A stretch of DNA of 64,000 bases from assembly GCA_020353535.1 (NCBI GenBank), contig CP070696.1:3018368-3082367 (forward strand), given 5' to 3'. Source of the stretch: Spirochaetaceae bacterium. Its GTDB lineage: Bacteria > Spirochaetota > Spirochaetia > SZUA-6 > DRHE01. This document shows positions 45,471 to 49,187 of the stretch, piece by piece (the stretch's first letter is position 1; every line of letters starts with the position of its first letter). The translations under genes and the position numbers were made by a program. Under the pieces are notes generated by a model that saw only the letters and a list, made by a program, of their open reading frames with translations, was not told the origin of the DNA and did not search any database.

Positions 45471-47231
45471 ATGAGCAAGATCTTCAAACGCGGAGCTCCG
45501 CAGATTCCGGCAAAACTCAAAGGTGCGGTGGATCGACTGCTGCACAGAGGAGGGAGCCGGGAGATCCAGGCGGTGCGGAACAAGTCCATCGCCATCACCT
45601 CCGGGAAGGGGGGTGTAGGCAAAACCATCACGGCTGTGAATCTTTCGATCTACTACGCCCGTAAAGGATTTTCCACCGCTCTTATCGATCTGGATCCTCT
45701 CTCCGATGTGGCCACGCTTCTGGACCTGGTAGAAGCCGAATCGGCGGTGGAGCAGCGGAATAACGATAATGCCAAAGCAGGATTGGAAAGCTTTACAATC
45801 CCGGTGTTCAAGCATCTGGATCTGATTTTTCCCTCACAGAAGCTCAAGGATGTGGAACGCAGTGCACTGCTGGAGAAGATCTACCGGGAGAATCTAAGTG
45901 AATTGAACCGTGGTTATGAGCTGCTCGTGTTCGACCTGCCCGCGGGAAGCGAGTTCGAAGAGAATCTGGTATTTCTGCCCTTCATGGGAATGGTTCTGCT
46001 GGTTACAAATCCGGAACCTACCGCACACGCAGCCGCCGGAGCGTATATCAAGCGCGCCTACGAGGTGTACCAGAACCTGACCATCCATATCTGGCACAAC
46101 CGATTTTCGCCCAACACGCAGCACCACTTCAATCCGAAAGACATCGTGGGAAACTACAACCGCAACGTGTCCAGGGAGCTGCGCATCGACGCGAAGACCG
46201 CAGCCCGGCTCAGAGATTTCGCAACCGTGCCGGAAGACCCTGCCTTGAACCTGCTTCGGGGCAGTCCGGCGGCGGATGAAAACGTGCTTCGTTTTCTCCT
46301 CGACACCCTGATGTACATCCACGAAGAGCGCATAGCCACCCTGGCGGCCGCCACCATCTCCAACCGATCCTTCGAATTGATCAAGCACTTCCTCACGCAT
46401 CATAAGACGATCGAAAATATAGACGAATACCTGGAGGACATCGGACGCTACCTCCGTATCCTGCTGGAACTGCAGCTTCGAACCCAGGACAGTCCGAGCG
46501 CAGCACCTGCGGTGGATTCCGCCGAGCCTGGGGCGGGGCTTCAGGTTTTCACCTCAGATGAGAAAAGCGGTTTTCGCAGTTTCCTCGAGAAACTTAACGC
46601 GGATCCACTACGGCAGCGGATAGTTCGAACCATGGAGCTGCTGGAGACAAAACTTCACGAGTTGGGGGAGAAGGCCAATCCCTTTGCCGCAGGTACCGCG
46701 GTCGTTCCCGACAAATCTGTTGATAGAGAGCTTTCCGCACTCCTGGTCGCCATCCAGCGGACGGACAGCCAAAACCGACTGATGATGAACCAGGGAGGGC
46801 TTCTCCTTTTCTATTTCTCCCTCTACAAACTTTTTCAATCCGAGACCGTAACAGAGCTGATTCGTTCCCTCGTTCCCGCCAAAAAGAATAAAAAAGGCAC
46901 GCTGGTGCGCGACCGGCATCGTCAGATCCAAAATCTTGTGGAAGGAGACGCGGAGTACAAACAGCGCTATCTAAAACTTCTGAAGACACTTCACCCCGTG
47001 GTCAGCAAACAGATTGCCACCATCGTGAAAACTTTTGACCTGTCCGGATTGCTGTTCCGAGAGGAAGGGGGAGCGGTACTCCGCAGCGCGTATGTAAAAC
47101 TGCTGACCAACTTCCTGCACGACACCTTGTACAGCGGTCTGAGCGTCGTCGTCGGTTTTCCCTTCCGTTCCGCTGCCAGCGCGTTCCAGGAAGGCGCAGA
47201 AAAGGCACTCCACAGTCTGCGAAACGACTGA
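45471..47231 (+). CDS. MinD/ParA-like ATPase with long helical C-terminal extension
   Basis: The protein has 586 residues. The deviant Walker A GKGGVGKT is at 45-52, followed by TALIDLDPLSDVATLL, FDLPAGSEFEENLVFLPF (switch II/Walker B) and LLVTNPEPTAHAA: a MinD/FlhG-type fold in residues 35-270. The last 300 residues are helical with no recognised family (EFKKSGFRS..., LVPAKKNKKGTLVRDRHRQI). Most MinD/ParA proteins are under 300 residues, so the extension is unusual. A gene with PAP2-type motifs starts six bases downstream, and the pair looks like one operon. Its role could be positioning at the membrane (inference). Confidence 0.78.
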   Translation: MSKIFKRGAPQIPAKLKGAVDRLLHRGGSREIQAVRNKSIAITSGKGGVGKTITAVNLSIYYARKGFSTALIDLDPLSDVATLLDLVEAESAVEQRNNDNAKAGLESFTIPVFKHLDLIFPSQKLKDVERSALLEKIYRENLSELNRGYELLVFDLPAGSEFEENLVFLPFMGMVLLVTNPEPTAHAAAGAYIKRAYEVYQNLTIHIWHNRFSPNTQHHFNPKDIVGNYNRNVSRELRIDAKTAARLRDFATVPEDPALNLLRGSPAADENVLRFLLDTLMYIHEERIATLAAATISNRSFELIKHFLTHHKTIENIDEYLEDIGRYLRILLELQLRTQDSPSAAPAVDSAEPGAGLQVFTSDEKSGFRSFLEKLNADPLRQRIVRTMELLETKLHELGEKANPFAAGTAVVPDKSVDRELSALLVAIQRTDSQNRLMMNQGGLLLFYFSLYKLFQSETVTELIRSLVPAKKNKKGTLVRDRHRQIQNLVEGDAEYKQRYLKLLKTLHPVVSKQIATIVKTFDLSGLLFREEGGAVLRSAYVKLLTNFLHDTLYSGLSVVVGFPFRSAASAFQEGAEKALHSLRND

Positions 47232-47236
47232 CCGCC

Positions 47237-48118
47237 ATGGCCGCAACGGACATCACGGGGCAGAGTCTCGGCCGGAGCATCTGCCTGATCCTTCGGAAAG
47301 GCCGGCTGCTGGCCAGAGGTATAGACATATTCAAGGCATCCCTGAGGGAGTTCTTCCTCCCCCAGTTTCAGTCCAGTCTGCGTCTGCACAACCGACCGGT
47401 AGCGGTCCTGTCTCACCCCCTGGATGGCTCGCTGCCCTTTGTGCCGAGCCTGGTGCGCAGGTATCTCGGTTATTTATCTATTTGGTTGAAAACGCTGCTG
47501 TTCCTGTACCGGACATACGGAGAGGCCGCGCTGCGGGATATCGAGCGGATGATGACGGATCTGGTACTGCTCTATAACACTTCCGGCAGGGTGTATCAGC
47601 GCTGCCAGTCCACGACCCCTTCCCGGCGCACCCCCCTGGGGAATCCCTACTTTTTCCTGATTCTGCTCTTCGATCCTCATCTGCACTGCATTCCCAGTCT
47701 GCACGTTCTCACAGTTTGTTATAACTACCGCCAGATCCGGAAGATGGTGATGAAATTCGATCCGCAGGGCGCGAACAACAGCGAGGCAGTTGAGCAAGCC
47801 TACCGTCTGGCCGTGGAGATTACCGAGACGATCCTGCTGGTCAAGCAGCACAGCCTATTGGATATCGGGCCCTCTCTCTATCTGCTCTCCCGTCTGTTTC
47901 CCGATTACGACGACGCCGAGGTCTATCGCTTCGTGGCGGATCTGTTTGCTGACAATCCGATGGTCGGGCCGGAAAGGGCGCTTCCAATCCGCGAGCTGAT
48001 TCTGGAAGAATACGAAAAGATCAAGGTTGATGAAAGTCGGCGCCAGGAGCAGGAGCCTATCCACGCCCTTCTGCGCTATTTGGAGGGGTATTTAAAGATC
48101 AGCCTGAGCATCGGCTGA
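47237..48118 (+). CDS. Uncharacterised protein with PAP2/inositolphosphotransferase-type catalytic motifs
   Basis: The protein has 293 residues with no clear signal peptide. Two segments match the lipid-phosphatase core: CIPSLHVLTV (Cys151-His156; motif C2, P-S-x-H) and ETILLVKQHSLLDI (His205 and Asp209; motif C3, H-x3-D), with RTPLGNPYF as a possible C1. Spacing between C2 and C3 His (49 residues) suits PAP2_3/IPC-synthase-like enzymes, which act on phospholipid headgroups. Membrane helices are weakly defined (around 74-92, 137-158). It is coupled to the MinD-like gene (five bases) and near plsY. If it is not PAP2, I cannot name a family. Confidence 0.5.
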   Translation: MAATDITGQSLGRSICLILRKGRLLARGIDIFKASLREFFLPQFQSSLRLHNRPVAVLSHPLDGSLPFVPSLVRRYLGYLSIWLKTLLFLYRTYGEAALRDIERMMTDLVLLYNTSGRVYQRCQSTTPSRRTPLGNPYFFLILLFDPHLHCIPSLHVLTVCYNYRQIRKMVMKFDPQGANNSEAVEQAYRLAVEITETILLVKQHSLLDIGPSLYLLSRLFPDYDDAEVYRFVADLFADNPMVGPERALPIRELILEEYEKIKVDESRRQEQEPIHALLRYLEGYLKISLSIG

Positions 48119-48164: not shown

Positions 48165-48449
48165 CTAGCACGAACCGCCGTAGGCCGGCCGGATCGTGAA
48201 GCCTTTGCCCCACATACTGTCTATATAATCTACGGTGCTCTCAACAGCGTAGGGCAATGCCCGTTTGTCGACGAGAATGTCTATTCCCTCTACTTTGTAG
48301 GCCTCATCACCGTCTTGTGGCTCATCCAGAGCCAAACCCAAACGGGGCCCGCCTCAGCCAAAGCCCTTGAACACCACCCGCAGGCTTTTGCCCTGGTTCT
48401 CTTTCAGGACATCGTGCAGCTCTGCGAGGGCTGTCTCTGTTATTTGCAT
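48165..48449 (-). CDS. HesB/IscA-like selenoprotein (in-frame UGA read as selenocysteine)
   Basis: ATG 48449 to TAG 48165 is a 94-residue frame with one internal TGA (codon 32, 48354-48356). Translated through, it reads LRVVFKGFG-Sec-GGPRLGLALDEP... and ends TIRPAYGGSC. The segment V-F-x-G-F-G-[Cys/Sec]-GGP-x-LGLALDE is the first metal/cluster-binding Cys region of HesB-like A-type iron-sulfur proteins, a family in which bacterial selenoproteins are known. A hairpin 20 bases past the UGA (48319-48333) fits a bacterial SECIS. The gene has AGAGGT before the start, its own promoter and an inverted repeat over the -10. Standard gene finding would break it in two. Confidence 0.82.
48319..48333 (-). 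promoter_or_regulatory. Candidate bacterial SECIS hairpin
   Basis: On the minus-strand mRNA GGCUC-UGGAU-GAGCC forms a 5-bp stem with a 5-base loop containing G near its start, beginning 20 bases after the UGA. That lies within the 16-37-base window that SelB recognises in known bacterial SECIS elements. Confidence 0.6.
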
Positions 48450-48463
48450 TTTTGCATTACCTC

Positions 48464-48501
48464 TATATAGAATTATTACTATATATCACTATTTTTGTCA
48501 A
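48464..48501 (-). promoter_or_regulatory. Promoter and overlapping inverted repeat of the selenoprotein gene
   Basis: On the minus strand TTGACA (48496-48501), a 17-base spacer and TAATAA (48473-48478). The -10 lies inside TATATAG-N8-CTATATA (48464-48485), a perfect 7-base inverted repeat in otherwise GC-rich DNA. The -35 overlaps the plsY stop codon. Confidence 0.65.
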
Positions 48502-49187
48502 GCCTTTTCGGCATTCTCCTCTCCAGAGCTGTCGGCCCCCTTTAGCAGACGACCTACAAAGGAGGAGTTCATCCCGATAATGAAGAAAGACAACACGAAG
48601 GCGATCACAAGGATATACCAGGGATGTCCGCCTAGGCTGCGTCCGGCGAACAGGGGCAGATCCACGAAGAAGTTCAGAACCAGGGTTGCGAACGGCGTGA
48701 TGGAGACGAACAGGATCGGAACCCCTTGGCCGACGCGGAAACGAACCCCCCTGATGAAAAGCAGCGCGATCACAAAGGCGACAATCAAACAGAGCAGCAG
48801 TTCCGCAGGTATGAAAAAGGCGTACACTCCGATCGAGGTGGCGATTCCGCCTCCTCCGCGAAACTGAAAGAACAGGGGTTTGCAATGACCTGTGATAGCG
48901 GCGATCCCCACTGCGGCGACAATGAAAAAGTCCCAATAGTTATCCCCTGGGAAAAACAGCGACCGGGAAAGGATCATCGGCCCCAGTCCTTTCGCGACAT
49001 CGAGGAAAAAAACCAATCCTGCCCAACCTTTACCAACGCTACGGCCCACGTTCGCCGTCCCCGGATTCTTGTTCCCCATTGTCCGAATATCCCTACCCGT
49101 AACCAGACGGGTCACGATGATCGCATAGTTCACCGATCCTGAAAGATAGGCGAGAATGAGCAGCAGCGGGACGAAGAGGTAAATCAT
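48498..49187 (-). CDS. plsY: Acyl-phosphate:glycerol-3-phosphate acyltransferase PlsY
   Basis: The protein has 229 residues and about six membrane helices. Signatures YLSGSVNYAIIVTRLVTG (first active-site loop with Ser), IRTMGNKNPGTANVGRSVGK (glycerol-phosphate loop) and GHCKPLFFQFRGGGGIATSIG (acyl-phosphate loop with the conserved GGKG/GGGG) identify PlsY. It transfers an acyl group from acyl-phosphate to glycerol-3-phosphate, the first step of phospholipid synthesis. The third loop reads RGGGGIAT where many homologues have KGGKGVAT. It is the third gene in a minus-strand run with acyl-CoA synthetase and a receiver protein; the receiver stop is eight bases upstream. Confidence 0.9.
   Translation of the reverse strand: MIYLFVPLLLILAYLSGSVNYAIIVTRLVTGRDIRTMGNKNPGTANVGRSVGKGWAGLVFFLDVAKGLGPMILSRSLFFPGDNYWDFFIVAAVGIAAITGHCKPLFFQFRGGGGIATSIGVYAFFIPAELLLCLIVAFVIALLFIRGVRFRVGQGVPILFVSITPFATLVLNFFVDLPLFAGRSLGGHPWYILVIAFVLSFFIIGMNSSFVGRLLKGADSSGEENAEKA

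Follow-up and report, generated by a model that had tools for sequence, protein, structure and literature searches.

The question raised by the 64,000-nucleotide stretch of spirochaete DNA analyzed here (the window) is whether a small gene on its minus strand, running from 48449 to 48165 and interrupted by an in-frame TGA, is a broken gene or a whole one. The window covers 3,018,368-3,082,367 of one 4.84 Mb contig. Because the genome holds a full selenocysteine (Sec) machinery, and more than 30 relatives share both the "stop" and the RNA hairpin, we conclude that this broken-looking gene almost certainly encodes a complete selenium-containing protein of the iron-sulfur type. For the gene at 48449-48165 itself, the assignment as a selenoprotein is, on the comparative sequence evidence set out below, very highly probable.

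The coding sequence (48165-48449, minus strand, TAG included) starts with ATG at 48449-48447, spans 94 codons and ends with TAG at 48167-48165. Its sole internal stop is the TGA at codon 32 (48354-48356, minus strand). Translated with TGA as U, the predicted HesB/IscA-like selenoprotein of 94 amino acids reads MQITETALAELHDVLKENQGKSLRVVFKGFG-U-GGPRLGLALDEPQDGDEAYKVEGIDILVDKRALPYAVESTVDYIDSMWGKGFTIRPAYGGSC, with Sec32 in the context G-F-G-U-G-G-P. The 31 residues on the N-terminal side of the TGA and the 62 on the C-terminal side can be aligned with one and the same A-type family. Translated with Cys at the UGA, the protein matches PF01521 at 26.8 bits against a gathering cut-off of 26.3, which supports homology to the A-type/HesB domain; the same gene scored 24.0 bits, slightly below the cut-off, in a genome-wide scan. 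Its best match among the NCBI models is NF038090 (IscA_HesB_Se), at 71.9 bits against a curated cut-off of 85, and it scores 45.4 against 66.35 for TIGR01911 (HesB_rel_seleno); both values fall short of cut-offs that are model thresholds rather than biological features, and both were obtained with Cys substituted for Sec. The gene is absent from the standard table-11 list of ORFs of 60 amino acids or more, and is confirmed here from the raw sequence. A sequence-only reading of this DNA had proposed an A-type frame broken once, by TGA, at the position of the first cluster-binding Cys and closed by TAG. Its coordinates were exact and the single internal stop, the homology of both halves and the TAG all bear it out; the minus strand was absent from that account. 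A plus-strand reading of the same coordinates gives an unrelated frame and was rejected. The gene is overlapped by a frame on the opposite strand.

That reading had also given the gene its own promoter and ribosome site, and both were recovered. Immediately downstream of plsY, the minus strand carries a sigma-70-like promoter, TTGACA-18-AATAAT (48501-48472). It matches the consensus at 11 of 12 positions, with 0.4 promoter-like sites expected in shuffled sequences. By direct reading of the sequence, a Shine-Dalgarno-like AGAGGT (48459-48464, minus strand) stands 9 nt 5' of the ATG. Most homologues have a similar -35/-10 region 5' of the gene (TTGAC followed by TTTAGTATATT). When 110 bases upstream were compared across the phylum, most Sec-HesB genes were seen to share TTGAC, about 17-20 nt, and then TTTAGTATATTnTAAATAA. 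The information content of this conserved region is 11.7 bits, versus about 8 in shuffled sequences, and the region may include a regulator site. Over the -10 region lies an exact 22 bp palindrome, TATATAG-N8-CTATATA (48464-48485), a possible operator to judge by its sequence; the genome has three further copies with one mismatch each, and none of a reversed control pattern. These three copies (loci L063, L064 and L065, near position 1501) fall between genes that appear redox-related by eye, encoding a flavin/PNPOx-like protein, a fumarate reductase flavoprotein and a glutaredoxin-like disulfide oxidoreductase. The copies may mark a redox regulon.

Homologues were sought in 26 genomes of the order and in a sample of 393 genomes of the phylum. 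The order yielded one further UGA homologue, in Spirochaetes bacterium RBG_16_67_19 (G010), and the phylum sample contains A-type relatives in 40 genomes. We translated all 46 matches of the phylum search, the window gene among them, together with the G010 gene. UGA occupies the first cluster-ligand position in 33 of these sequences and Cys in the rest. The 33 UGA genes span 32 genomes, namely 31 of the 393 sampled plus one relative outside the sample, so that UGA-containing HesB proteins are widespread among the selenium-using Spirochaetota. The codon stands at the same residue in all 33 members, down to 33% protein identity with the window copy, in the context G-x-G-U-G-G-P (A-G-G-U-G-G-P in one member). 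Residues A7, G31, U32, G33, G34, P35, L41, E43, G83 and C94 are invariant in this group. All 33 members match both NF038090 and TIGR01911 at E <= 0.001, yet the group lies outside the present NF038090 cut-off, which a single match in the phylum scan passes. That match (genome G112, locus L032, 1501-1815) is a divergent A-type protein with Sec and a tail rich in Cys (GCGSCGTHGSCCS), encoded in addition to an ordinary Sec-HesB copy in the same genome.

The RBG_16_67_19 homologue (loci L024/L030) is 62-64% identical to the window protein and shares its UGA and hairpin. Its neighbours match those in the window on both sides: plsY, a response regulator and an acyl-CoA ligase, and a ParA-like NTPase and a 293-aa protein. 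It differs in its own C-terminus, which ends Cys-Cys, and in its upstream region. The adjoining opposite-strand genes in the window (45471-48118) and in G010 (L024) encode a 586-aa ParA/NUBPL-like P-loop NTPase and the 293-aa protein, which has no Pfam match. Relatives lacking the C-terminal half or carrying frameshifts had been named as what would speak against a functional gene; the close homologues instead retain the UGA as well as the C-terminal half. A SelB match is present in G006-G009, relatives from the same genus and the same family, and no homologue was found in them; the gene is therefore not universal even among the Sec users of its order. A scan of viral contigs found no relative, and a scan of named genomes found only one close named relative plus one distant archaeal match. 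The close one is RBG_16_67_19, which puts the window's genome among the spirochaetes of the same GTDB family.

A search of the genome for selA, selB, selD and tRNA-Sec had been suggested, with their absence as a ground for rejection, and all four are present. On the same 4.84 Mb contig as the gene, selC, selA and selB lie in a row at 3.8137-3.8171 Mb: a tRNA-Sec with anticodon TCA by ARAGORN at 3,813,701 (71.8 bits), SelA at 3,813,843 (487 bits) and SelB at 3,815,251 (294 bits; cut-off 242). SelD (372 bits) lies apart from the cluster, at 3.530 Mb. One in-frame TGA also interrupts the SelD gene, close to the N-terminal end of the protein (SSAAG-U-AAKMGP; locus L026, about 1342-2397; G000:C1:3530368-3531297), and the product is predicted to be a selenoprotein too.

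A SECIS-like hairpin about 20 bases past the UGA was a further element of the sequence-only reading. The element, UGGCUC-UGGAU-GAGCCA (48318-48334, minus strand), starts 19 nt past the UGA and has a 6 bp stem and a loop of 5 nt that begins 25 nt past the UGA, with G at position 2 followed by another G. Its predicted energy is -9.2 kcal/mol. These values lie within the published rules for bacterial SECIS elements, which ask for a loop of 3-9 nt with a G in its first two positions, a stem of 4-16 bp, a distance of 16-37 nt from the UGA and an energy of -7.5 or lower (PMC13188914). The stability of the window hairpin taken singly, however, shows no excess over shuffled sequences (z about -0.5 to -1.3), and for this reason the case for the hairpin was rebuilt on its relatives. 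Across the 33 sequences, 96.5% of cells form standard pairs, against 92.8% in shuffles, and three pairs are doubly changed, in 10 cells against 1.8 in shuffles; in both comparisons none of 500 shuffles reached the observed value. The shuffles do not control for the relatedness of the 33 sequences. A slide control does, and the pairing score collapses when the partner strand is slid. The loop reads UGGAU/C/A throughout the 33 UGA-aligned genes.

Codon choice within the hairpin is similarly constrained. All 33 Sec-group genes close the loop with CTG for Leu, all 26 Ala codons are GCT and 30 of the 33 Glu codons are GAG, whereas beyond the hairpin CTG makes up 32% of the Leu codons of these genes, GAG 29% of the Glu codons and GCT 21% of the Ala codons; since the 33 sequences are related, probabilities calculated from these codons overstate their independence. 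GTT stands opposite in the three genomes with GAA and in no others, a compensatory change from GCT..GAG to GTT..GAA. A small CCC...GGG pairing (48337-48347, minus strand) lies past the UGA and ahead of the main hairpin. Its C-G pairs are kept in 30-32 of the 33 sequences and CCC encodes the Pro in 30 of 33, a near-invariance that leaves little covariation by which to judge it. The hairpin thus stands on the bacterial rules and on covariation among relatives, and not on the folding energy of the single copy.

The distribution of the UGA form follows that of the machinery. With presence scored at E <= 1e-60, selA was found in 29 of 31 UGA-form genomes versus 62 of 362 others in the phylum sample of 393 (Fisher p about 2e-18). 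The two UGA genomes that lack selA have SelB and tRNA-Sec, and their completeness is 81% and 83%. One genome nested within the Sec clade (G057, support 100/96) has TGT (Cys) in place of TGA at this codon (locus L081). A search of G057 at the same threshold found no selA. No selB scored above the cut-off, the only candidate being a 405-aa frame of 191 bits that resembles an ordinary elongation factor. No tRNA-Sec was found either; the best covariance match, at 47.5 bits, was rejected as a tRNA-Ser by ARAGORN. In its hairpin the Leu CTG has become ATA, and the energy is -4.8 versus -9.1 kcal/mol. These observations point to an apparent reversion from Sec to Cys, with loss of the Sec machinery and relaxation of the hairpin. 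The C-terminus of this copy is also altered, so the copy may be decaying.

The machinery, the conserved UGA and the covarying SECIS-type hairpin support the functional selenoprotein first suggested by the sequence-only reading. The proposal as a whole, a functional 94-residue A-type selenoprotein of HesB/IscA fold with SelB-dependent insertion of Sec at codon 32, is one we hold with strong confidence. SerRS and SelA would turn the selC product into Sec-tRNA(Sec), using selenophosphate that SelD supplies. SelB carrying this tRNA would recognise the hairpin whose loop follows the UGA, codon 32 would be read as selenocysteine and translation would run on to the TAG. In the folded protein Sec32 would take the place of the first cluster Cys of IscA/HesB, and Cys94 would be the other ligand. 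From the genomic evidence we infer that Sec is inserted in the cell; binding of iron or an Fe-S cluster by this Sec and Cys, by analogy with A-type carriers, is more weakly suggested.

An AlphaFold2 model built from the 33-sequence alignment (pLDDT 87) was matched by Foldseek to IscA with [2Fe-2S] (1x0g), IscA (1r94, 1s98), SufA (2d2a), HI1723 and AQ_1857, with E of 3e-6 to 3e-5 for IscA (1x0g, 1r94), HI1723, AQ_1857 and SufA. In the predicted structure, Sec32 occupies the place of the first cluster-binding Cys of IscA/HesB. Besides Sec32, the C-terminal Cys94 is the sole conserved chalcogen ligand. A single C-terminal Cys of this kind takes the place of the CxC motif in 29 of 33 members; the window protein has Sec32 and one Cys where canonical A-type carriers have a three-Cys cluster site. 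Because the C-terminal cluster-binding CxC is reduced to one Cys, the role as Fe-S carrier is putative. On the specific function, we lean slightly towards a carrier of Fe-S or iron.

The strongest competing explanation accepts the selenoprotein and makes it something other than an Fe-S carrier, with Sec32 and Cys94 forming a selenol-thiol redox center or a metal- or oxidant-sensing site on an IscA-like fold. We consider this a serious possibility, though the less probable one. The single C-terminal Cys favors it, as does the fact that most selenoproteins are redox proteins (PMC13188914). The window gene also lies away from isc and suf genes, its neighbours being plsY, a response regulator and an acyl-CoA ligase. 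In several other spirochaetes (loci L035, L047, L051, L054, L058 and L080) Sec-HesB is found near rubrerythrin and/or a pyridine-nucleotide disulfide oxidoreductase, a proximity that would suit a redox role; in other relatives the gene follows a Lon-like AAA gene (Lon by eye). However, rubrerythrin and such oxidoreductases are iron or oxidative-stress genes as well and are compatible with Fe-S repair, and the first cluster ligand of IscA is matched in fold, in the G-U-G-G-P context and in where Sec lies. These observations are compatible with the handling of iron or Fe-S in oxidative stress and also with redox chemistry by the selenol.

A second alternative, that the UGA yields something other than Sec, whether as a codon for an ordinary amino acid or through leaky read-through or suppression, draws on the fact that the inserted residue cannot be named from sequence alone. 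It is very improbable, since TGA is an ordinary stop elsewhere in this organism (in plsY, 48498-49187, for example), a dedicated tRNA-Sec with anticodon TCA is encoded and the UGA form tracks the Sec machinery across the phylum; on the same three grounds a reassigned code was rejected. Still less probable is an A-type carrier gene with a nonsense mutation or a sequencing error, for although a stop interrupts the frame and the genome has an estimated 8% contamination, that reading is contradicted by the same UGA in 33 genes of 32 genomes, the hairpin, an otherwise intact frame, a conserved promoter region and constrained synonymous sites around the UGA.

HesB-like selenoproteins in bacteria, whose existence the sequence-only reading took as known, were described by 2006 (Zhang et al. 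2006, PMC1794560), and 90 of them in 86 organisms had been counted by 2016 (PMC5029168). The window protein is a well-supported new member of this family and not a new kind, and the comparative evidence is unusually clean. With the known members (PMC1794560; TIGR01911; NF038090; the "UxGP" row of PMC13188914) it shares the A-type fold family, Sec at the first cluster Cys in the pattern U-x-G-P (here U-G-G-P), a bacterial SECIS directly downstream and occurrence in anaerobe-rich groups. It differs in scoring below both curated models, in its one C-terminal Cys, and in its own gene context and spirochaete group. With the Fe-S carriers IscA, SufA and ErpA it shares the fold, an alignment over almost the whole length and the first ligand position, kept as Sec; unlike them it lacks the C-terminal Cys-x-Cys, has Sec for Cys and lies outside an isc/suf operon. 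The 2006 table of selenoprotein-rich organisms does not enter Spirochaetes with HesB-like proteins (PMC1794560), and we found no description of Sec-HesB in Spirochaetes in the searchable literature, though this does not prove that none exists. Less ordinary is the combination, read from the sequences, of Sec with one C-terminal Cys in most spirochaete members, versus the three cluster Cys of IscA.

Tentatively, the spirochaete Sec-HesB proteins may form a distinct A-type subfamily in which Sec and a terminal Cys replace the three-Cys site, possibly for something other than classical Fe-S transfer; we think this rather unlikely, and if true it would bring roles such as selenol-based cluster repair or redox sensing into view. 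A genome-wide scan found no other PF01521 protein, so the window protein appears to be the sole A-type homologue of its genome, and any A-type function there would depend on selenium. As the only conserved ligands of the group are Sec and one Cys, the role of HesB selenoproteins becomes easier to test. The G057 lineage, in which the Sec machinery was apparently lost, the UGA became a Cys codon and the hairpin relaxed, offers a clean natural experiment.
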